Virus record (IMG/VR): IMGVR_UViG_3300047548_000679
Location: 1 to 31,755 of that record
Length of the DNA stretch: 31,755 bases
Direction: 5' to 3' (one strand)
Origin: a virus
Part shown: one piece after another, positions 4,512-22,593 of the stretch
Layout: each line of letters starts with the position of its first letter
How positions within the stretch are numbered: the stretch's first letter is position 1
Translations under genes and position numbers: made by a program
The notes under the pieces: model-generated
Seen by the model: the letters and a program-made list of their open reading frames with translations, nothing else
The model's database searches: none
Told to the model about the DNA's origin: nothing

Positions 4512-7500
4512 ATGAATATCACCGAGTTAGACAAATACAACCTAAACGATGCAATTAAATTCCATGACCGGCTTAATCCCCGGTTGTGGGATGAGCGTGA
4601 ACATCTACGCCAGGATGTACATGACAAGTTAATGCAAATTGCACGAGATTTCCAAGAATTTTTAGGTGTTGAAGATCTACAAGTAAAAGACATCACCATC
4701 AGTGGCAGCAATGCTGCTTACACTTATACCCCACACAGCGACATTGACCTGCACCTAGTGGCCGATTTGCCCGATGCAGACAACAATGAAGTATATCGCG
4801 AACTGTTTGACGCAAAGAAATTTCAGTACAACTCACAGCACGACATTAGAATTGGCGGCTATGACGTTGAGTTGTATGTACAAAACCCCAATCAAGAACA
4901 CCACAGTCAAGGCATCTACAGTTTGATGCAAAACAAGTGGCTCAGTGTGCCCAAACGTCGACGCCCCGAAGTTGATGACATCAGCGTAAAAAGCAAGTAC
5001 GAAGACATTGGTCACAGAATCGAAGCTGCCATTGACAGTGGTGACCGTGAACTCATGAGCGATGTTTGGAACAAGCTCAAGACCATGCGCAAACAGGGCC
5101 TGGAACGCGAAGGCGAGTTCTCACCCGAGAATCTTGCGTTCAAGATGTTGCGCAACAACGGCACTATAGAAAAGTTCAAACAAGCACAACAAGCAGTCAA
5201 AGATCGTGAACTCAGTTTGGCTGAACAAGATCGTCCACGCCAACGTATTCGTTATGGCTTTGGTGAAGGCATGCAAAGTCAACCCTACAGCACCAGCGAT
5301 GGTGTTGCAGCCAGTACCAAACAATTCTTAGAAGGTAAAACTGATGATGTGGTCATGGATTTTATTCGCGACACAGCCAAACGTCTAGGCATTCGCCGCA
5401 TGCCCCGGGTTCATTTGCACAATGATGCTGAATGGAGCGAGCGTGAAAAGAGTTTTGGTATGTTTATTCCCAACACTTGGGAATTGCATGTTAACACCGC
5501 CAATCGCCACTTGTTTGATATTCTACGTACCACTGCACATGAATTAGCACACTGCCGTCAGCACGAACTCGGTGATCCAGGTCCCGATGCAGGCGAAACC
5601 GGCAGCGACATTGAAAACGAAGCGCATGCTGTGGCCGGCATCATCATGCGAGACTTTGCTGATTCACACCCCGATTGGTTCACTGATCAACCTGTGTTGG
5701 AGAGTTCTGGTTACATTCCCACAGAACGTGAAAAGAATGATCCACGTTTCAAGATGGCATTGACAGTAGACATCAAGCCTGGCCAGACTGGCCGAGAAGC
5801 CAACAAGATGGCGTTGAAAACTGACGCACAAGGCAAGCCTGCGTTGTTGATGAAAACAGCAAACTTGCGCGAAAGCAAGATGCCGCAGCCCAGTCAAGGT
5901 CCAGGCAAGTATCGTGATTTGAATCAACCCTTGGGCCCAGAAACTCCGCCTACCATGCCCAAGGGCACCGTCAAAGTAGATGTATCTGATGTGTATGACT
6001 GGTATAAGTTAGGCAGTCATATCAGCAATCTCAAAGGTTTGGGCAAGCACGACTTTGGTGCCGGGCCGCCAAGCACCATCATCAGCTTTGGCGATGAAGA
6101 CACTGAGCACCAATATATCAAAGACTTGGAAAAAACTGGCCTAACAACCACTGATATAGATCCTGCCAGTCACGAAAAACTACCAGGACAAAAAACAGAT
6201 CCTACTTACAATGTAGACGAAGAAGATATTTTAGAAAGTCTGCGTCGTGAGTTTGCACTGCTGGAAGATGAGTACATCAGCGAAGTGCGTATGAGCACAA
6301 GCAATCTACGTCAACTGGCAGCACAAACAGGTGCCATGGCCGGCATGGAATTTGAAATGATCGTGCCCGACGTAGAGGGTCAAGAAATGGATCCCGAGTA
6401 CGAGCGCGACGAAAGTTATGATCGCAGAGCTCGCAGCTTTGACGACATTGAAGAATTCTTCTACGACGGTGACTACAATGGCCGTGGTGACATTCGTAGG
6501 CTCATGGACTCCTTGCGTGAGGACTTTGAAAACTGGAAGATGGAGCGACTAGGCGATGACTGGTCAGATGAAGGCGTCGATTTCCTGCGTGATTACATTG
6601 CCAACAACGACTTGTTTGATCGCGAAGACGCATTGGATACTGCCAGAGACGAAATTATCGACGCCAACCCCGATCTACCACCAGAGTCAGAAGACTTCCA
6701 ACAACTGGTCAGTGCCAGAATCAACGAGATGGAAGAAGCATACGTAATGGAAGTCTGGGAAGACGGTATCCAGGGCAACAGCCGCATCTACGACAACGCT
6801 TTCGAAGAGTTTGTTCAAGAAAAAGGCGCTGACATGGAGGAAAGCGACTTCCTACAAGAAAACACTCCTTACATGTCAGACGTGGAAAGCAGCTATGATG
6901 TTAGTTGGCCTTATTTCTATGATATCAACGATGGCCAGGGTGGCGAGATAAGTGTAGACGAAGTAGCCGATGACTTTTCAGAAGCCATAGGGCGGCCCGT
7001 CAATGCTAGTCGTAGCTACCACGGTGGGCGTCGTGAAGCAGGTACCTATGTTGTAGAACCCGATGGCAGCTTAGAAGGTGACAACCCCGGCGACGGTGGA
7101 CTGGAGTTTGTGTCACCGCCCTTGCCTATTGACGAAATGCTCAGCGACCTCAACAAAGTCAAGGAGTGGGCCGGCAAATATGGGTGCTATACCAACGACT
7201 CTACAGGCTTGCACATCAACATTTCTGTGCCAAACTATTCGCTAGAAAAGCTAGACTATGTTAAACTAGCCTTGTTAATGGGCGACGAATACGTATTAGA
7301 TTTATTTGGTAGATCAGGCAATCACTATGCCAAAGCTGCCACAGGTAAGATCAAGACAGCATTAAAGCAAAAGCCTGAGTTAGCGCCTGCATTGTTAGAC
7401 AAGATGCGTGGGCACATGGAAGACCTTGCTACCAAGGCCATTCACTCAGGACAGACAGACAAATACACAAGTATCAATACCAAAACTGGTTATATTGAGT

Positions 7501-9008
7501 TCCGTAGCCCTGGGGGCGATTGGTTAGATGCTAACTTTGACAAGATTGAAAACACACTGTTGCGTTTCACTGTGGCCCTGAGTGCTGCCATTGACCCCCA
7601 AGCATATCGCAAAGAATACTTGAAGAAACTTTACAAACTGTTAGAAGGTGTGCAAGACAAAGGCGGTGTTGACATTGTTCAACTGTTTGCTAACTACTCA
7701 GCTGGTGAACTAGACAAGGCCGCACTAATTCGTCAAGTGCGTCAAAGTCAGCTGGGCCGCAAGGTTGCAAAAGGCATTGAGCCAGGCAAGAAGTATTGGT
7801 GGAATGTGGAATGGAACAACGGCCGCCGTATGGAAGTTGTTGCCGGCAGTGAGCGAGCAGCCAAAGAAGTTGCTGCCGAAGAATGGGGAGTTCACCCTGA
7901 CAGCGAAGCTGCACTCAGCTTCAAGGCAACTGTGCTACGCCCATATGAAGAACCAGCAGCGCAACCAAACACAGGTAACTGGGGCATTTGGCTAGGCTCT
8001 AACCAACGTTTTTCTCGAATTCCTGGAACATATCCAGCAGGTCAAGAAGCACCGTTGCGTAGATTCCCAAGTCGAGAGGCAGCAGAATCCTGGCTAGCAA
8101 ATCATCGCGCACAAAACATAGGTGTTCGCAACGATATTGAAATTCGCGAAATCGAACCTACCTATCCTGAACAAACAGGAAACTGGGGTATCTGGGCACA
8201 TGTGCCACAAAGGTTTGCTGCATTGAGTACCTCACCTGGCGCACCGTTGCGTAGATTTGAAACTCAGGCTGCTGCACAAGCATGGTTAGATTCTACTAGC
8301 TTGAATCAAGAAAGATTTGATGTTGCAGAAATCCCTGCAGATTATCAGAGACCAACGCCACAAGGTCAAGCACAACAAACAGAGTACGAATTGTATCGAC
8401 GAGCCGACGGTCGTGCTGTAACTGCACCAGCAGGTAATCCTATTGTATTCCGTGCAACTACCCCACAAGACGCTGAGAGCAAGATTCCTAGATACGTAGC
8501 GGACTTTAACTTACCAGGTACAGCCGCCGATTATGATGTTCGCTCAATGCTACAACCAGCTCAACAATCCCAAGAACCCAGCAACACTCAGAGCAACTTG
8601 ACACCACGTGGTCCGGGGCCTTGGGAAATCTACAGACTCAGCGACAACTCCAGCGTTCGTGAACTCAGCAATACTGATCGCACAGCAGCCGGCGAAGAAG
8701 CTAGACGAGCATTGGGACTTCGTGGCGAAGCTCCTGAACTATATGGTGTGCGTACTCGCCAACAACAGATGCAGCCAGGAGATATTGTTGCTCCGGGATT
8801 GGGCGAAGTACCTGCACAACAACCTCAGCAACAAACATTCACAGGCTATTGGGATGTTATGATGGGCGATCAGGTTGTGTTTAGAGTTCAAGCAGAAACA
8901 CAAGGCGAAGCCAACAACAAGGCACGTGAGTGGGTCTCAAGAACCAGTCCAGAATTTAGACAAGACCATCAGGGCCAAGAAATGTCTGTAGTTCCGAGGT
9001 ACGCATAA
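4512..9008 (+). CDS. Giant multi-domain 'polyvalent' protein: nucleotidyltransferase, metalloprotease, amidoligase, repeats
   Basis: In order, residues 1-230 hold a minimal nucleotidyltransferase (SGS at 64-66, SDIDLH with D77 and D79). Residues about 270-400 hold a zinc metalloprotease domain with HELAH at 343-347 and a downstream acidic helix. Residues about 600-1070 form an amidoligase-like (glutamine-synthetase/ATP-grasp-related) domain with GMEFEM at 611, TGLHINIS around H901 and IEFRSPGGDW at 995. From about 1095 to the end there are roughly six repeats starting with an aromatic beta strand (near 1095, 1154, 1222, 1292, 1369 and 1445). Two of these share TGNWGIW and APLRRF. Such fusions match the concept of polyvalent proteins, injected with phage DNA to modify or disarm host components. 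That role is inferred. A late octamer lies 7 nt upstream, and the stop overlaps the next start by one base. Confidence 0.85.
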   Translation: MNITELDKYNLNDAIKFHDRLNPRLWDEREHLRQDVHDKLMQIARDFQEFLGVEDLQVKDITISGSNAAYTYTPHSDIDLHLVADLPDADNNEVYRELFDAKKFQYNSQHDIRIGGYDVELYVQNPNQEHHSQGIYSLMQNKWLSVPKRRRPEVDDISVKSKYEDIGHRIEAAIDSGDRELMSDVWNKLKTMRKQGLEREGEFSPENLAFKMLRNNGTIEKFKQAQQAVKDRELSLAEQDRPRQRIRYGFGEGMQSQPYSTSDGVAASTKQFLEGKTDDVVMDFIRDTAKRLGIRRMPRVHLHNDAEWSEREKSFGMFIPNTWELHVNTANRHLFDILRTTAHELAHCRQHELGDPGPDAGETGSDIENEAHAVAGIIMRDFADSHPDWFTDQPVLESSGYIPTEREKNDPRFKMALTVDIKPGQTGREANKMALKTDAQGKPALLMKTANLRESKMPQPSQGPGKYRDLNQPLGPETPPTMPKGTVKVDVSDVYDWYKLGSHISNLKGLGKHDFGAGPPSTIISFGDEDTEHQYIKDLEKTGLTTTDIDPASHEKLPGQKTDPTYNVDEEDILESLRREFALLEDEYISEVRMSTSNLRQLAAQTGAMAGMEFEMIVPDVEGQEMDPEYERDESYDRRARSFDDIEEFFYDGDYNGRGDIRRLMDSLREDFENWKMERLGDDWSDEGVDFLRDYIANNDLFDREDALDTARDEIIDANPDLPPESEDFQQLVSARINEMEEAYVMEVWEDGIQGNSRIYDNAFEEFVQEKGADMEESDFLQENTPYMSDVESSYDVSWPYFYDINDGQGGEISVDEVADDFSEAIGRPVNASRSYHGGRREAGTYVVEPDGSLEGDNPGDGGLEFVSPPLPIDEMLSDLNKVKEWAGKYGCYTNDSTGLHINISVPNYSLEKLDYVKLALLMGDEYVLDLFGRSGNHYAKAATGKIKTALKQKPELAPALLDKMRGHMEDLATKAIHSGQTDKYTSINTKTGYIEFRSPGGDWLDANFDKIENTLLRFTVALSAAIDPQAYRKEYLKKLYKLLEGVQDKGGVDIVQLFANYSAGELDKAALIRQVRQSQLGRKVAKGIEPGKKYWWNVEWNNGRRMEVVAGSERAAKEVAAEEWGVHPDSEAALSFKATVLRPYEEPAAQPNTGNWGIWLGSNQRFSRIPGTYPAGQEAPLRRFPSREAAESWLANHRAQNIGVRNDIEIREIEPTYPEQTGNWGIWAHVPQRFAALSTSPGAPLRRFETQAAAQAWLDSTSLNQERFDVAEIPADYQRPTPQGQAQQTEYELYRRADGRAVTAPAGNPIVFRATTPQDAESKIPRYVADFNLPGTAADYDVRSMLQPAQQSQEPSNTQSNLTPRGPGPWEIYRLSDNSSVRELSNTDRTAAGEEARRALGLRGEAPELYGVRTRQQQMQPGDIVAPGLGEVPAQQPQQQTFTGYWDVMMGDQVVFRVQAETQGEANNKAREWVSRTSPEFRQDHQGQEMSVVPRYA

Positions 9009-14683: not shown

Positions 14684-15543
14684 AGTTTAGATTTTACCGC
14701 AGCCAACATTGCATCATAGTTGGGAATGACATGCTGATCCCAGTCATACTGCATGCTGAGACTTAGGTCAGGTATTGCATCGCAAACAGCATTGTGCTCA
14801 TTGCCCCAACCTGTGAGTTGATCCAAGCTACTGTATTCATATCTACGCTGCCATTGATAGTCAACATTGCCTTGTAGCACTGCCCAATTACCCAAGAGTT
14901 CGTATTCGCTGAACCACTTGATGATATTGCCATTGCCCCAAGGAGGCACTGTGGGCATACCGGGAACAGCTTCAATGATGGCATCCAACCATTTTTTGTT
15001 GGGCCAACGGCTCTGTATGTGTTTTTTGAGACTTTGCATATCCTGTCCACGAACAGCACACAGTTCAGTTACAAAACAATGTGGACTGGGATGTGGGATG
15101 CCAGTAATTGCTTCAAACACACCATTGTAACTACCCTGCACTGTGTTTTCCAAAGCCATTAGGTTGAGCCGGTTGTCTCGGTAACACTGGTATGGTTGTA
15201 TCATGAAAGTGTCTACATCATGCATCAGCATAACGTCATGGTTGATGTAATCTAAGTAAGCCAATTTTATAGCCTGCTGACGCAGCCACCAACCGCGATA
15301 GTCGCCTTCAAAAACCCAGTTATTGACCTCGGGATAGTGTTGATATATTACTTCATCGTTAACGTAGTCAAACCTACTGGTGTCAATACCATAACGTTCA
15401 AACACTGGCCAAAGCTCTGCCTGTGGCACAGGACTAGCAATCACAGTGCGATCGATATTTTGCAAATAGTGATCAAACTGCAATGCAAAACAAGCATGGG
15501 GCACACGATATCGTGCTAGAAAAACAATGCGGGATATTGTCAT
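14680..15543 (-). CDS. Putative GT-A glycosyltransferase (DUF6492-like), 287 aa
   Basis: The signature [16 protein letters not shown] at 84-99 is followed by [10 protein letters not shown] (D109, D111), the metal-binding DxD of GT-A enzymes. It matches the signature of the plus-strand gene at 11410-12249, but here the DxD is intact. The C-terminal half has Trp- and His-rich segments (GWGNEHNAV) that may bind the acceptor. Start and stop overlap the flanking minus-strand genes by 4 bases each (ATGA), so all three are translated from one mRNA. It probably transfers a sugar. Its acceptor could be the product of the radical SAM partner or a surface glycan. Confidence 0.7.
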
Positions 15544-16544
15544 ACAATGTTACAACTGTTTACACAAGCATAGAGTCTGCCGTTGGCAATGCTGTCTTGT
15601 TGCCAGGATTGTTCTACTGCATCAAACCAAGACAAACAATGTTCCAAGGGATAGTGCAAGGCATTGTTTTCTTTAACAATGTCTGTTAACTGTTCATTAC
15701 CAGGATGATGCATAGAGTTGGGATAAAATCCAAGATAGCAACAAGGATACACTGATCCATCAGCAGCAAGATAGATTTCACGATGTATCTTGTGTTGGCA
15801 TCGTAAATTTAAAGTGCTGGTGTCTTTTTCAATGCGTATAGTTTTGGCGTTGAACCATGTGCGATGGCTTTCTAACAAATCATCAATCTTAGGGGCATGA
15901 TCATCGGGCTTGCCTAACCAGTGACTAAATTCCCCACGGCGTGTGTACACAGGACCACGATCTCGTCCATCCCAGATGTTTTCGAATCTAGCAAATCCAT
16001 ATTCTTTGGCAAGACGCTGGCATTCTGCTTCTTGATGTTGGTTGTGATCAAATGGCACAAACCTCCATATAGCATGTCCACCAGCAGCAATAAATGCACG
16101 GGCATTTTCTATCACACGGTTCCAGTCAGTGTCTTGTCGATACAAACTGTGTGTGTCGGCAAGGCCGTCTAGAGCAAAGCCAATTTGAACTCCAGGCAAA
16201 GCCATGCTGGCCCACCAGTCAGGGTTGCGAGCACCACCGTTGGTGTTGATATTGATCCGCACACCTTGATCGACTAGATACTTTACAATTTCTGCACCAT
16301 CACGGGCTAGTGCAAAGTCTCCAAGATTGCCGTTGAAGTTTGCCCCGTATGCTGTGTTTTGTTTGAGTTGTTGACACAGTTCGGGCGTGACTATGTGCCG
16401 AAACTGTTCCAGTGTAAGTTCGCACAGTGGGTACCCAGAATTGTAGTCACTACCACGATAGTTTCTAGGGCACATAGGGCAGCGAGCATTGCAACGAGTA
16501 GTTAATTCTACATGGATCCTGCGTATGTCAGGTAACTTTAGCAT
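15540..16544 (-). CDS. Radical SAM protein with SPASM-like C-terminal cysteines, 334 aa
   Basis: The CxxxCxxC cluster that binds the SAM-cleaving [4Fe-4S] centre is seen as [11 protein letters not shown] (C18, C22, C25). It is followed by a TIM-barrel pattern ([24 protein letters not shown]). The C-terminal part has [27 protein letters not shown] and a final CVNSC, typical of SPASM/twitch domains holding extra clusters. Such enzymes modify peptides or sugars. It is not QueE-like. The start was set at 16544: it opens directly into the core ([14 protein letters not shown]) and a TATAAATA lies 5 nt upstream. The longer frame from 16730 would run through the divergent plus-strand gene. It heads the minus-strand glycosyltransferase operon. 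Confidence 0.85.
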
Positions 16545-16549
16545 GGGAA

Positions 16550-16557
16550 TATTTATA
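16550..16557 (-). promoter_or_regulatory. Perfect late promoter octamer TATAAATA on the minus strand
   Basis: Read on the minus strand, the sequence is TATAAATA-TTCCC-ATG, with the octamer 5 nt before the radical SAM start. No ribosome-binding site is present, so the predicted mRNA is leaderless. It forms a divergent pair with the plus-strand octamer at 16570, with 12 bases between the two. Confidence 0.65.
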
Positions 16558-16569
16558 GGCGTGGTTTTT

Positions 16570-16577
16570 GATAAATA
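16570..16577 (+). promoter_or_regulatory. Late promoter octamer GATAAATA on the plus strand
   Basis: Seven of eight bases match TATAAATA. It ends 6 nt before the ATG at 16584, with no Shine-Dalgarno sequence, so it would give a leaderless transcript for the small gene that follows. Confidence 0.6.
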
Positions 16578-16583
16578 TACTTT

Positions 16584-16886
16584 ATGCAAAAACAATTTGT
16601 CACTGCTGTATGCGATGTTTACTGTAAGTGGACTGGAGAACATCCACGGTACAGAGCCTATGTCGAAGACGAGCTTTTCACTGAACGTACTTGGATATGG
16701 CGAGATATGTATCTTGAAGAAAGTTTTCAAATATACGCTTTGCCAGGCAAATACAGTTTGCGATACGAACTAGTCGATCCCGAAAACGCCAAGATCAAGA
16801 TGCGCAATCTTCGCATACTTAATGGTCCAGCAGTTATAACACCGCAAGGCGATATCGAAATATATACACCAGGACCCACACAATGA
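16584..16886 (+). CDS. Hypothetical protein, 100 aa
   Basis: I recognise no family. The product is rich in aromatic and acidic residues ([44 protein letters not shown]), with the alternating pattern of a small beta-barrel or beta-sandwich. An ATG with a late octamer 6 nt upstream marks the start. An overlapping frame at 16489-16773 lacks protein-like composition. The stop overlaps the next start (ATGA), which begins with the MRAREI leader. Its promoter and neighbours place it among late, possibly virion, proteins. Confidence 0.75.
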
Positions 16887-17086
16887 GAGCACGTGAAATC
16901 ATGGAAACTGCAACTACCAGTGCTGGCAGCATAGCACCAGTGTCAATGGCCATGGGCACAGTTTCAAGAAACGGTGGTTCCTTGTTAAGTGGTAAATATA
17001 CTAATGACCCAACGCCCAATACGCCGAGGGAGTATAAGAGGAACAAAAATGCTCGCAGACAGTTTAAAAACTCTCCTGGCAACTGA
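16883..17086 (+). CDS. Small MRAREI-leader protein, 67 aa
   Basis: The N-terminus [15 protein letters not shown] belongs to the leader group, and I-M-E followed by Thr could be a prohead-protease site. The body is low-complexity and polar, with the phrases SGKYTNDPTPNTPRE and KRNKNARRQFKNSPGN, so after cleavage it would leave a short basic peptide able to bind DNA, much like T4 internal peptides. The ATG overlaps the previous stop. The last 38 bases overlap the start of the Dps-like gene in another frame, and a late-promoter-like element and the Dps ribosome-binding site lie inside this gene. No enzyme function is expected. Confidence 0.7.
   Translation: MRAREIMETATTSAGSIAPVSMAMGTVSRNGGSLLSGKYTNDPTPNTPREYKRNKNARRQFKNSPGN
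16992..17000 (+). promoter_or_regulatory. Late-promoter-like element GTAAATATA inside the small leader gene
   Basis: The TAAATA core at 16993-16998 lies 50 nt before the ATG at 17049 and would give a leader containing the AGAGGA ribosome-binding site near 17037. It also lies 5 nt before an in-frame ATG at 17004, which would be a leaderless alternative start adding 15 residues to the Dps-like protein. Confidence 0.45.
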
Positions 17087-17492
17087 ATACGCCTTTGTAA
17101 TCAAGGCTCAGTTGTTTCACTGGAACGTAGAAGGCCCAGACTTTGCACAACTGCATGAGTTTTTTGGCGACATCTACGAAGAAGTCTACGACAATTCAAT
17201 TGATCAAACTGCTGAATACATTCGCATACTAGATGATTACACTCCAGGCAGCTTTGAACGTTTCACAGAACTGTCTGCTATCAAAGGGCAAACCAAGATT
17301 CCACGTGCCCGACTCATGATTGAAGAATTACTGGCCAACAACGGTCAAATGATTGAACTTCTTAACCAATGCTTCCAAGATGCTGAATCAGAAAATCAAC
17401 AGGGCATCATGGATTTCTTGGCACAGCGCATTGATGCCCACGGCAAGCATGGTTGGATGTTGAAGAGTTTTTTGAAAGACAGTAGAGCATGA
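17049..17492 (+). CDS. Dps/ferritin-like protein, 147 aa
   Basis: The sequence shows the Dps pattern: AQLFHWNVEGPDFAQLHEFF with H24 and H36 twelve residues apart, then D52 and E56 (SIDQTAEYI). These are the residues that form the ferroxidase site between two subunits. The four-helix length of about 147 residues fits Dps, and the basic extended N-terminal tail of bacterial Dps is short here. Dps proteins form 12-subunit shells that store iron and protect DNA. I chose the start at 17049 because an AGAGGA site precedes it and it matches the family's first helix. A GTG at 16989 and an ATG at 17004 in the same frame would add a basic extension. Function in the phage (DNA protection or iron removal) is inferred. 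Confidence 0.82.
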   Translation: MLADSLKTLLATEYAFVIKAQLFHWNVEGPDFAQLHEFFGDIYEEVYDNSIDQTAEYIRILDDYTPGSFERFTELSAIKGQTKIPRARLMIEELLANNGQMIELLNQCFQDAESENQQGIMDFLAQRIDAHGKHGWMLKSFLKDSRA

Positions 17493-18209: not shown

Positions 18210-19454
18210 ATGATAGTAGACCAATTATTCAATAACAACAATAAAACAAATGAGAGCTTGGCCGACGAGTTTATGAAGATGGCTCAAGCGAAAGGCTACA
18301 ATCCTCGTCTGCGTGGTACGCCTGATGAAGAACGTGCTCGCACTGATGCTATGTTAAAGCAACGTGCTGCTGATCGCGCAGCGGCACCTGCGCCTGCTGC
18401 TGTCAGCGACGAAGAGCGTGCTGAGTTACAGGCCAAGCTTAAAGAATTACAAGCACAGTTTGATCCCAATTATGAATACAGCGATGATCATACTTTCTGG
18501 TCTCAACAGAATACCATTGCTAAACAAATTGCTGGCATCAAGAAAAAGCTGTCGCAAGGCGTGGCAGAAGGTGAACAAATTGACGAACTAAGTCTAGACC
18601 AAATTGGTCGAGGCCTTGGTTCTGCTGCACGAGGCGCTAGTCGTGCTGTTGGCGGACTTGCCGGTGGCATTGCTGGTATTCCAGGTGCTGTAAAATCTGG
18701 TTACAGAGATGCCAAAAACTACGTAGGCGGAGCAGCCAAACCTGTTGCACAACCTGCAAGCGCACAATCTGGTGCAAACAAACAAGTACCATTGAGTATG
18801 ATCAATCCAGCCACTGGCAAACGCTACACATATGATGAGTTAAACGCCATGGCGCCTGCACAGAGTACTGCTGCTGCAACACCAACCACAGCAACCGCTC
18901 CAGCTGCAACAACAGCCGGCGGCCCACCAGGGTTCAATGCCAGCAATGTAATGAAGTTGCCAGGCATGGAAAAATATGCAAAGAAACCAGCTCCGGCAAA
19001 AACTCCTGGCTTTGCAGGACCCGGCGGCTACAGTAACGTAACCACATCGTTTAAGGCTCCAGCAGCGGCACCAGCAGCAAAGCCGGCAGCGGCACCAGCG
19101 GCGTCTGCGAAGCCAGCGGTTACACCAGATGGAATGACTACCGGTGAATACAATCCAAAAACTGGTGCTGCTACCTTAGGCGGTAAAACAATGATAGCTA
19201 TGAAAGACTTACCGCCCAAAGTTCAACAGCAATTACTGACCACAGTTAAAGAGACTACCCGTAGCGTAAAACCCATGCTTGAAAGTGCATCAAGCCTTGA
19301 TGATGCTAAAAAGATTAAAAATTACATTGACCGAGAGTTTGCCAAGCTTGGTGTAGTATCTGAAAGCGTTTACGAAGTTCGCAACAAAATGATTGAAGAC
19401 GTTACTCGTATTGTGGCAGTCAAACGTAGAGAACACGCTCGTAAGAGCAGCTGA
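18210..19454 (+). CDS. Ala/Pro/Gly-rich protein with QGVAEG motif, 414 aa, probable internal virion protein
   Basis: The protein begins MIVDQLFNNNN, similar to the start of the gene at 11131. Residues 60-115 are charged helices, and QGVAEG lies at 116-121. Residues about 130-175 form a Gly/Ala-rich amphipathic, possibly membrane-active, segment (GGLAGGIAGIPGAVKSG). Long Ala/Pro/Thr-rich disordered tracts follow, and a helical C-terminal domain (residues about 335-414) ends in a basic tail (VAVKRREHARKSS). QGVAE before Gly matches the (L/I/V)-x-E pattern cut by T4-type prohead proteases, and the same motif occurs in the product of 2086-3549. A role inside the head, possibly forming a pore during injection, is speculative. 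A 145-base structured region follows the stop. Confidence 0.7.
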   Translation: MIVDQLFNNNNKTNESLADEFMKMAQAKGYNPRLRGTPDEERARTDAMLKQRAADRAAAPAPAAVSDEERAELQAKLKELQAQFDPNYEYSDDHTFWSQQNTIAKQIAGIKKKLSQGVAEGEQIDELSLDQIGRGLGSAARGASRAVGGLAGGIAGIPGAVKSGYRDAKNYVGGAAKPVAQPASAQSGANKQVPLSMINPATGKRYTYDELNAMAPAQSTAAATPTTATAPAATTAGGPPGFNASNVMKLPGMEKYAKKPAPAKTPGFAGPGGYSNVTTSFKAPAAAPAAKPAAAPAASAKPAVTPDGMTTGEYNPKTGAATLGGKTMIAMKDLPPKVQQQLLTTVKETTRSVKPMLESASSLDDAKKIKNYIDREFAKLGVVSESVYEVRNKMIEDVTRIVAVKRREHARKSS

Positions 19455-19531
19455 ACACACCTTAGGACCGTTACCGTTTACGGTGTGTGGGCGGCTGCTG
19501 CCTCAGAGTCCGGATTCGCTACCCAGGACTC
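19455..19531 (+). other. Structured intergenic region, possible transcript end or small RNA
   Basis: Two inverted repeats are seen: ACACACC at 19455-19461 with GGTGTGT at 19482-19488, and GAGTCC at 19506-19511 with GGACTC at 19526-19531. Inside the first, ACCGT/ACGGT at 19473-19484 forms a competing hairpin. No T-run follows, so this is not a standard terminator. It separates the late operon from the early-type promoter at 19551. Confidence 0.4.
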
Positions 19532-19550
19532 GAAAGTGAGCAAATAACAT

Positions 19551-19579
19551 TTGACATCTCCTAAAGTGTCGTATACAAT
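19551..19579 (+). promoter_or_regulatory. Near-consensus sigma-70 promoter before the dsbA-like gene
   Basis: TTGACA at 19551-19556 is a perfect -35 box, the spacer is exactly 17 bases, and TACAAT at 19574-19579 matches five of six -10 bases. Transcription should start near 19586, giving a leader of about 14 nt with AGGAG at 19588-19592. This is the strongest host-type promoter in the window and implies early expression by unmodified host polymerase. Confidence 0.8.
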
Positions 19580-19594
19580 GATACTTTAGGAGAT
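19556..19594 (+). promoter_or_regulatory. 12-bp perfect inverted repeat overlapping promoter and ribosome-binding site
   Basis: ATCTCCTAAAGT at 19556-19567 is the exact reverse complement of ACTTTAGGAGAT at 19583-19594. In RNA the stem can extend inward by five more pairs, two of them G-U, around an AUACA loop. The right arm contains the AGGAG ribosome-binding site (19588-19592), paired with CUCCU of the left arm. The -10 box lies in the loop, so transcripts begun here lack the left arm and cannot fold. Read-through transcripts would be shut off. It could also be a DNA operator. Confidence 0.7.
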
Positions 19595-19599
19595 TCTCT

Positions 19600-19860
19600 A
19601 TGTCAGCAAAAACATTCAACGGCGAGCAAAAGCTCAAACTTACTCAAATCATCAACGAAGGCATGCAAGTCATGCATGAAATTGACACACTACAAGGTGG
19701 CCTCAATGACACCATCAAAGCAGTGGCAGAAGAACTTGAAGTCAAACCAGCTATCCTTAAAAAGGCCATCAAACTGGCACACAAGGCCGAATTTGGTAAA
19801 GAAAAACAAGACCACGAAACCCTTGAGACTATTCTTGAGACTGTTGGCAAGACCCTATAA
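19600..19860 (+). CDS. dsbA: DsbA-like small double-stranded-DNA-binding protein, 86 aa
   Basis: The protein is short, helical and charged. The C-terminal part (LNDTIKAVAEELEVKPAILKKAIKLAHK and a terminal acidic segment ETLETILETVGKTL) resembles T4 DsbA, an 89-residue protein that binds double-stranded DNA at late promoters and modulates late transcription. The similarity is seen in length, helix order and the pattern of an 'ELxVKPxxxxKxxKLxH' core, but identity is low, so the name is provisional. It has its own strong sigma-70 promoter and an AGGAG site 7 nt before the ATG, and it lies just before the DNA polymerase gene. Its stop codon overlaps a TATAAATA element. Confidence 0.6.
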   Translation: MSAKTFNGEQKLKLTQIINEGMQVMHEIDTLQGGLNDTIKAVAEELEVKPAILKKAIKLAHKAEFGKEKQDHETLETILETVGKTL

Positions 19861-19863
19861 ATA
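19856..19863 (+). promoter_or_regulatory. Perfect late octamer TATAAATA before the DNA polymerase gene
   Basis: The octamer overlaps the stop codon of the dsbA-like gene and lies 69 nt before the polymerase ATG at 19933. The leader would contain a small hairpin (GCTCC/GGAGC) near 19884-19898 and a GGAG ribosome-binding site at 19925-19928. A late promoter before a replication gene is unusual and may be a chance match around a TAA stop. Confidence 0.4.
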
Positions 19864-19932
19864 TCTGTTCAGCAGACGAGTCGCTCCCGTAAGGAGCATG
19901 AATCACGGCTTACCGGCCACAAACGGAGAACA

Positions 19933-22593
19933 ATGAGTTATATTGACGCACTATTTGATCGTGAGCACGATCGCATTCATGTTGTTGAGCGCAAGGATGG
20001 CGTTCGACACTATCAAGAGTTTCCAGCCAACTACATCTTTTACTATGATGATCCCCGGGGGAAGTTTCGCTCCATCTACGGGAATCCGGTTTCTCGTTTC
20101 AGCACCAGAAACAACAAAGAGTTTCGCAAAGAGATTCGCATACAGAGTGGAAAACAACTGTACGAAAGCGACATCAATCCAATCTTCCGTTGCTTAGAAG
20201 AAAACTACAAAAATCTCGATGCACCCACACTCCACACAGCAATATTCGACATCGAAGTAGCATTTGACCAAGAGCGTGGATTCTCGCCAGTCGAAGATCC
20301 ATTTAACCCCATTACAGCTATTTCGGTATACTTAGATTGGCTTGACCAGTTGATCACATTGGTAGTACCGCCAGCACACATGAGCTTGGAAACTGCTCAA
20401 GAAATTGCTGGCGAGTTTGAGAACACCATTGTGTTTACTGACGAAGGCGAAATGATCAAGACTTTCCTTGATCTCATTGATGATGCGGATGTGCTCACAG
20501 GTTGGAACTCAGAGGGTTACGATATTCCCTATACCATAAACCGATGCACCCGTGTACTCAGCAAAGATGACACACGGCGTTTTTGTTTGTGGGGACAACT
20601 GCCCAAACAGCGTATGTTTGAACGCTATGGTGCCGAAGCACAAACTTATGATCTTGTGGGTCGTGTACACATGGACTACATGCAACTGTATCGCAAGTAC
20701 ACATATGAAGAGCGACACAGCTACAGTTTGGATGCTATCTTGGAATACGAAGGACTTGATGGCAAGACCAAGTTTGAAGGCACACTGGATCAGCTTTACA
20801 ATCAAAACTTCAAGACATTTATTCAGTACAACCGACAAGATGTCAATGGTATTGCACAAATGGACAAGAAGTTGCGCTTCTTGGATCTAGCCAACGAACT
20901 GGCACATGCCAACACTGTGTTGCTACAAACCACCATGGGTGCCGTGGCAGTGACTGAACAAGCTATCATCAACGAAGCACACGAACGTGGCATGGTTGTA
21001 CCTAACCGCAAGCAAAGACTCACTGACGAGGACACACAGGCTGCTGGTGCTTATGTTGCCTATCCCAAGAAGGGCGTACACATGTGGATCGGTTCGGTTG
21101 ACATCAACTCACTGTATCCCAGTGCAATTCGTGCATGCAACATGGGACCAGAAACCATTGTAGGTCAACTGCGTCCAATCATGACTGACAGACTGATCAA
21201 GGAACGCATAGCCAAAGGACAGAGCTTTGCGGCTGCATGGGAAGGTTTGTTTGCTACACTGGAATACACCGCTGTGATGGAACAAAGTCGTGGCACAGAA
21301 ATTACCATTGACTGGGAAAACGGCGAGGAGAGCGTACACTCGGGTGCAGAAATTTGGCAGATGATCTTTGACTCAAATCAACCTTGGATCCTCACTGCCA
21401 ACGGTACTATTCTTACCTATGAGACAAAAGGTATCATTCCTGGACTACTGGAGCGTTGGTATGCTGAACGTAAAGAGTTGCAAGCAAAGAAAAAGGATGC
21501 CACTGACCCCAAGGAAATTGCATTCTGGGACAAGCGACAGTTGGTTAAAAAGATTAACCTCAACAGTTTGTACGGAGCTATTCTTAACCCGGGCTGTAGA
21601 TTCTTTGACAAGCGTATTGGCCAATCGACCACTCTTACTGGTCGTAGTATCGCCAAACACATGGATGCTTATCTCAATGAATGCATCACTGGTGAGTATG
21701 ACCACGTTGGGAAAAGCGTCATCTACGGAGATACTGATTCGTGCTATTTCTCCGCGTGGCCTGCGCTTAAAGCCGAAGTTGAACAAGGTCGGATGGAATG
21801 GAGCAAAGAAACGTGCATTGCACTGTATGACAGTCTTGCTGACCAAGTCAACGCGAGTTTCCCTGCATTCATGGAACAAGCATTTCACTGCCCAAGAGAT
21901 ATGGGCGCACTTATCAAATGCGGTCGTGAAACCGTAGCAGATCGTGGATTGTTCATTACCAAAAAGCGTTATGCTGTCAACGCCATTGACATTGAAGGCA
22001 AGCGCCTTGATGTAGAAGGCAAGATTGGCAAGACCAAGGCCACTGGCTTGGACTTAAAGCGCAGTGATACGCCAAAGATTATTCAAGAGTTTTTGCTGGA
22101 AATTCTAAATAAGCTACTAGCCGGTGCTGGCAAGGACGAGATTGTGGAACGTATCCGTGAGTTCAAATACGAATTCAAGGAGCGTCCGGGTTGGGAGAAA
22201 GGCAGTCCCAAACGTGTCAACAACTTGACCAAGTATGCTGCTGAGGAAGCTAGGTTGGGTAAAGCCAACATGCCGGGACATGTGCGAGCTGCCTTGAACT
22301 GGAATATGCTACGCAAAATGAACAGCGACAACTATTCAATGCAGATTGTAGACGGTATGAAAACTATTGTGTGCAAGCTCAAGCCTAATCCCCTGGGATG
22401 GACGTCAATCGGTTACCCCACAGACGAACAGCGACTACCACAGTGGTTCAAGGAATTGCCGTTCGATGATGGCGAAATGGAAGCCACTGTGGTTGATGGC
22501 AAGGTTGACAACTTGCTGGGTGTGTTGGACTGGGACCTTGCGTCTGCAACCAATACAGATAACACTTTTACAACACTGTTTAGTTTCGAATGA
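19933..22593 (+). CDS. 43: Family B DNA polymerase, gp43-like, 886 aa
   Basis: All family B motifs are present. In the 3'-5' exonuclease domain, FDIEVAFD has D106 and E108, GWNSEGYDIP has D197, and YNRQDV has D303. In the polymerase domain, motif A is DINSLYPS (D390), motif B is KKINLNSLYGA (539-549) and motif C is YGDTDS (D600, D602). The length is close to T4 gp43 (898 residues). The enzyme replicates the phage genome with proofreading and should bind the sliding clamp encoded downstream by its C-terminus (TFTTLFSFE), which resembles the hydrophobic clamp-binding tail of gp43. A GGAG site precedes the ATG, and the stop overlaps the methyltransferase-like gene (ATGA). No intron or split is seen. 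Confidence 0.97.
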   Translation: MSYIDALFDREHDRIHVVERKDGVRHYQEFPANYIFYYDDPRGKFRSIYGNPVSRFSTRNNKEFRKEIRIQSGKQLYESDINPIFRCLEENYKNLDAPTLHTAIFDIEVAFDQERGFSPVEDPFNPITAISVYLDWLDQLITLVVPPAHMSLETAQEIAGEFENTIVFTDEGEMIKTFLDLIDDADVLTGWNSEGYDIPYTINRCTRVLSKDDTRRFCLWGQLPKQRMFERYGAEAQTYDLVGRVHMDYMQLYRKYTYEERHSYSLDAILEYEGLDGKTKFEGTLDQLYNQNFKTFIQYNRQDVNGIAQMDKKLRFLDLANELAHANTVLLQTTMGAVAVTEQAIINEAHERGMVVPNRKQRLTDEDTQAAGAYVAYPKKGVHMWIGSVDINSLYPSAIRACNMGPETIVGQLRPIMTDRLIKERIAKGQSFAAAWEGLFATLEYTAVMEQSRGTEITIDWENGEESVHSGAEIWQMIFDSNQPWILTANGTILTYETKGIIPGLLERWYAERKELQAKKKDATDPKEIAFWDKRQLVKKINLNSLYGAILNPGCRFFDKRIGQSTTLTGRSIAKHMDAYLNECITGEYDHVGKSVIYGDTDSCYFSAWPALKAEVEQGRMEWSKETCIALYDSLADQVNASFPAFMEQAFHCPRDMGALIKCGRETVADRGLFITKKRYAVNAIDIEGKRLDVEGKIGKTKATGLDLKRSDTPKIIQEFLLEILNKLLAGAGKDEIVERIREFKYEFKERPGWEKGSPKRVNNLTKYAAEEARLGKANMPGHVRAALNWNMLRKMNSDNYSMQIVDGMKTIVCKLKPNPLGWTSIGYPTDEQRLPQWFKELPFDDGEMEATVVDGKVDNLLGVLDWDLASATNTDNTFTTLFSFE

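Follow-up and report, generated by a model that had tools for sequence, protein, structure and literature searches.

The window analysed here, a virus record of 31.8 kb (31,755 nt), contains a dsbA-like gene of 86 aa at 19600-19860 (+). Its product matches phrog_12534 and also phrog_639, 'transcriptional regulator' (E 2.5e-9). The cultured homologues all come from jumbo phages: Sinorhizobium phage Phosso, Agrobacterium phage Atu_ph07, Salicola phage SCTP-2, Vibrio phage 2.275 and the Pseudomonas phages PA5oct and MIJ3. The MIJ3 homologue is annotated as DsbA and in turn matches the dsbA of Ac42 (E 1e-3), so that by sequence similarity the product would belong to the DsbA family, with an indirect link through MIJ3 and Ac42 to the DsbA of T4. 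In T4 the protein binds weakly to late promoters and is non-essential (PMC2988020). The PA5oct homologue, EST35_0310 (L458, 6001-6276), is listed in the annotation as a structural protein seen by mass spectrometry, so virions may contain DsbA.

Downstream of dsbA is a T4 gp43-type family B DNA polymerase of 886 aa (19933-22593, +), which is closest to that of Phosso (50%); a DNA polymerase also follows dsbA directly in MIJ3, PA5oct and Vibrio phage 2.275. Upstream, a co-directional gene of 414 aa without a family match (18210-19454, +) is the presumed source of read-through RNA. Further upstream of dsbA the window encodes a ferritin/Dps-like DNA-binding protein (16989-17492), a radical SAM protein on the opposite strand (15540-16730, -) and a protein of 1498 aa with an amidoligase-like match and a weak nucleotidyltransferase match (4512-9008).

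Immediately in front of dsbA is a sigma-70 promoter with 11 of the 12 consensus positions matched, made up of a -35 element TTGACA (19551-19556, +) and a -10 element TACAAT (19574-19579, +) separated by 17 nt, and this was the top promoter-like site in a scan of the window from 15 to 25 kb. Inside the spacer of this promoter lies the left, anti-SD arm ATCTCCTAAAGT (19556-19567, +), identified from the inverted repeat and from the covariation described below. The right arm ACTTTAGGAGAT (19583-19594, +) includes the Shine-Dalgarno (SD) sequence AGGAG at 19588-19592. Together the arms form a perfect inverted repeat of 12 bp around the -10 element, with a loop of 15. The sequence and the promoter scan thereby confirm the original prediction of such a repeat around a near-consensus sigma-70 promoter. 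With loops of up to 20 allowed, no other perfect inverted repeat in the window is as long; 40 simulated windows matched to it in dinucleotide composition contained no 12-bp repeat, and their repeats of at least 10 bp averaged 0.5 per window. The second-longest in the real window, at 575-606, has 11 bp and a 10-base loop (GAAATAGTATG/CATACTATTTC). From the promoter geometry, transcription would start at 19586-19588 (+), 7-9 nt past the -10 element and within the right arm. The dsbA start codon, ATG at 19600, comes 6 nt after the stem-forming arm ends on its right side. No T4 late promoter of the TATAAATA type is present within 19551-19600. An intrinsic terminator was considered at this site and rejected, as the right arm is followed by TCTCTATG with no T run and the site is absent from the terminator scan list. 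An exact 35-base search of viral contigs gave no match.

RNA carrying both arms is predicted to form 16 pairs, 19557-19572 with 19578-19593, counting G-U, and 17 in the centroid fold, in agreement with the 17 pairs anticipated as a maximum. The -10 element falls in or near the hairpin loop. The -35 letters 19551-19556 can in addition form an outer helix with 19601-19606 that masks part of the start codon, and with this helix included the fold has an energy of -26.1 kcal/mol (z = -6.1). RNA beginning at about 19586 wholly lacks the left arm and forms no more than a small hairpin of low stability (-7.1 kcal/mol for 55 nt, z = -0.5). The predicted probability that the SD is unpaired is 0.000 in the read-through RNA of the window and 0.33 in the promoter-started RNA, where a weak 4-bp hairpin in the short leader also touches the SD, a point that counts against reading the palindrome as a silencer. 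Across 50 palindromic dsbA units the median is 0.00 for read-through against 0.53 for promoter-started RNA, as compared with 0.43 and 0.69 in 103 non-palindromic units. The predicted folds therefore support the fold-back logic first proposed, in which the SD is hidden on read-through RNA and left accessible on RNA started at the inner promoter.

The interpretation that we favour, with a probability of about 80%, is that the palindrome, in a group of giant phages related to T4, is a fold-back silencer of read-through mRNA with the dsbA promoter at its core. Polymerase carrying a sigma-70-type factor would start within the palindrome, at about 19586-19588, and the resulting mRNA, with its short leader and free AGGAG, would be translated. 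RNA arriving from the upstream co-directional genes would carry both arms and fold into the hairpin of 16-17 pairs, and the dsbA copy on it would presumably not be translated, so that DsbA would be made only when its own promoter fires.

To compare relatives, 80 polymerase, 80 close DsbA and 80 distant DsbA loci were assembled, which yielded 197 distinct dsbA upstream regions, 172 of them with a recognisable sigma-70 promoter and SD. For the covariation count, sequences qualified solely by having CTCC in the spacer and GGAG in the SD, whatever the further extent of the stem, and the arms were anchored by script on these two motifs and not by MAFFT, in whose alignment they were misaligned. At the inward position +2 the arms paired in 28/29 cases (shuffled mean 14.7), at +3 in 29/29 (17.1) and at +4 in 25/29 (16.7), and at each of these positions none of 5000 shuffles scored as high. 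The pairs at +2 to +4 were A-U, U-A, G-C and G-U. Among the 12 cases at these positions that were not Watson-Crick, 7 were G-U, which is a weak signal because transitions are common. In 25 representatives, a set chosen for having stems, a phage's own arms fitted better than swapped ones (0/20000 permutations). Wholly different arms are seen in the distant relatives L310 (TTCTCCTAGTAG/CTACTAGGAGAA), L365 (ATCTCCTAGAATAAT/ATTATTCTAGGAGAT), L403 (CTCCTTATAGG/TCTATAAGGAG) and L412 (AATCTCCTGTAT/GTACAGGAGATT) and in the cultured Pseudomonas jumbo phage MIJ3 (TAACTCCGTT/AACGGAGTTA), and these differing arms sit in the same promoter-SD layout. The comparison shows, at the level of sequence, selection for complementarity between the promoter spacer and the SD region, and the covariation at +2 to +4 supports conservation with compensating changes in relatives, which had been suggested as a check.

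A palindrome at a promoter could also be a DNA operator, with a dimeric repressor, perhaps DsbA itself, binding both arms and autoregulating transcription. The arms flank the -10 element and overlap the end of the -35 element and the start region, a DNA role is conceivable for a left arm that lies within the promoter spacer, and the family has precedents in T4 for binding DNA and late promoters (PMC2988020). Two relatives also have long palindromes at the dsbA promoter that leave the SD uncovered and are possibly DNA operators: in L409 TTGACATTGTATTAT/ATAATACAATGTCAA lies over the -35 element itself, and in L387 ACATAGTAA/TTACTATGT lies in the promoter spacer. For the palindromes that do cover the SD an operator nevertheless seems unlikely. 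The letters of the arms differ between phages with near-identical DsbA while complementarity is kept, and many dsbA genes that encode near-identical proteins have promoters without a palindrome, so that an operator for DsbA would not explain the pattern; moreover, the SD is always part of the right arm and G-U pairs are tolerated. Variable letters, retained pairing and the recurrence of one layout with different arms favour base pairing in RNA over a protein operator.

Loci found by scanning for the pattern were left out of the frequency estimates because the palindrome itself had found them. Among 141 distinct units found through their proteins, 28 (about 20%) have a spacer-SD stem of at least 8, against 2.1 expected from shuffled spacers, 1 from reversed spacers and 9.2 when spacers are swapped between phages; stems of at least 10 occur in 19 of the 141, against 0.2 expected. 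That the arms are a product of chance or drift, with CTCC-containing spacers resembling SD complements by accident, would fit the patchy distribution, and as CTCC is present in 28/141 spacers against 5.9 expected, a few cases are presumably accidental. As a general account this is scarcely credible, since both the covariation outside the CTCC core and the arm lengths of 10-15 pairs greatly exceed the null. The same contigs offer too few further strong sigma-70 promoters near an SD and ATG for a useful comparison; there are only 4, none with an SD stem.

A short distance from the -10 element to the ATG is near-universal among the dsbA upstream regions; the left arm is patchy. On the DsbA tree the palindrome is scattered, with 25 changes by parsimony of which at least 8 are forced by well-supported branches, counts that are rough because the tree rests on only 87 columns. 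Loss in close relatives had been named as evidence against the proposal, and the outcome is divided: the left arm is absent from most relatives, including some with DsbA more than 95% identical, while in others the arrangement is present. Most non-palindromic units (92/104) lie downstream of co-directional genes with no terminator detected. Since the left arm is missing in most relatives, also behind co-directional genes, the device must be dispensable, an optional feature that has evidently come and gone repeatedly. In 45 of 46 palindromic units the upstream gene runs in the same direction as dsbA, and a search for intrinsic terminators upstream of these units gave none. The palindromes follow upstream genes of at least 12 unrelated families, which indicates that the palindrome belongs to dsbA. 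The SD palindrome is absent from Vibrio phage 2.275, which has a terminator-like hairpin and T run upstream of dsbA, and from Salicola phage SCTP-2, where the upstream genes are divergent; these two cultured relatives are suggestive, but only suggestive, of the palindrome being absent where read-through is prevented in other ways.

Between the upstream gene and the promoter is a conserved structured RNA element (19452-19543, +), with the sequence blocks CCUUAGGACC ... GGCGGCUGCUGCC ... GAUUCGCUACC ... AAGUGAGCA, which is associated with the switch and not part of it. It has 98 distinct instances among the compared loci, where it follows the upstream gene and precedes dsbA or a different, inserted gene, and its helices covary, for example G-C 67/C-G 17 and G-C 59/C-G 26 in 85 sequences. 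A search of this stretch against Rfam 15 gave only sub-threshold hits and no match at the gathering score, and the element is possibly a new class of RNA. Conserved, covarying, directly upstream and found once per record in the three related jumbo phage records searched, it raises the question of whether the left arm is its expression platform, the whole being riboswitch-like or a protein-bound leader that controls the SD hairpin. We consider this very improbable: the promoter sits between element and hairpin, the palindrome is absent from some phages that have the element (e.g. L050, L056 and L017), and the palindrome-bearing L411 has no match to the element in its genome record, nor was one found in the records of L408, L396, L371 and L373. 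A second leader precedes the DNA polymerase (19857-19932, +) and consists of GAGTCG, a stem, a GGC..GCC hairpin and CGGAG. It is kept in 67/81 sequences with compensating changes, the stem occurring as CTC/GAG, TTC/GAA or CTG/CAG, and some copies have ATAAATA or ATAAGTA ahead. By analogy with T4 gp43 it may be a translational operator.

The fold-back silencer may also have a temporal role, in which the dsbA promoter would be active early and read-through would come late. The late operon that the original prediction had placed upstream of dsbA is putative: the upstream genes of the window have no structural family match, and virion neighbours were seen only in PA5oct. In that phage 4 of the 5 genes directly upstream of dsbA encode virion proteins identified by mass spectrometry, which fits late read-through. 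The arrangement may thus be the T4 lysozyme switch with its timing reversed, with early DsbA from an early sigma-70 promoter and late read-through RNA silent for DsbA, and with many independent origins or redesigns across jumbo phages. This is a plausible but tentative proposal that we regard as slightly less probable than its opposite.

Similar arrangements are known elsewhere. In IS10/Tn10, transcripts from outside fold and hide the start of the transposase gene, although there the system is a mobile element and the arm is supplied by the element end. In Bacillus subtilis a hairpin of 20+ bp is proposed to keep sigG from being translated on transcripts that read through from spoIIG, and it cannot form in transcripts of the sigG promoter (PMC5942855); this differs in being a single case, at a bacterial sporulation gene with different sigma factors. 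Closest are the T4 genes e, soc and 49 and I-TevI, where read-through RNA folds and hides the SD and RNA from the gene's own promoter lacks the 5' arm and is translated (PMC3014915, PMC2988022), so that the comparison originally drawn with e and soc is well founded. The dsbA of the window has in common with T4 e, soc and 49, I-TevI, I-TevII and I-TevIII, segB and Aeh1 mobE a promoter within an SD-sequestering hairpin. As in the T4-type leaders, the SD or start codon is in a helix of the upstream-started RNA, here as judged from prediction and covariation, and the gene's own promoter is placed such that its RNA lacks the 5' arm, the left arm ending at 19567 and the -10 element at 19579. In the T4 set, however, the inner promoter is late (of the TATAAATA type with no -35 for gene e) or, for the endonucleases, middle or late, and it is early read-through that is silenced, whereas the promoter in the window follows the sigma-70 consensus and includes a -35 box, the gene is dsbA and the left arm lies in the -35/-10 spacer. 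T4 dsbA itself, flanked by rnh and 33 and annotated with a gap of 8 bp from rnh, is not directly preceded by a promoter or palindrome of this kind, and its overlap with gene 33 is absent from the window, where DNA polymerase follows dsbA instead. The working principle is thus already known from T4 e, soc, 49 and I-TevI and Aeh1 mobE and has been proposed for sigG, and the sigma-70 inner promoter is the departure.

If the interpretation is correct, the fold-back switch of the T4 lysozyme type is not tied to late promoters or to lysis genes, and phages would have a general, terminator-free route for placing a single gene under the sole control of its own promoter. Nature supplies a ready-made test panel in the arms, which realise one pairing in many different letters, and in the related loci without them. 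The time-reversed switch with its repeated independent origin at dsbA, if true, would imply that late synthesis of DsbA is costly, and repeated selection on the timing of dsbA translation would be a new clue to the function of DsbA.
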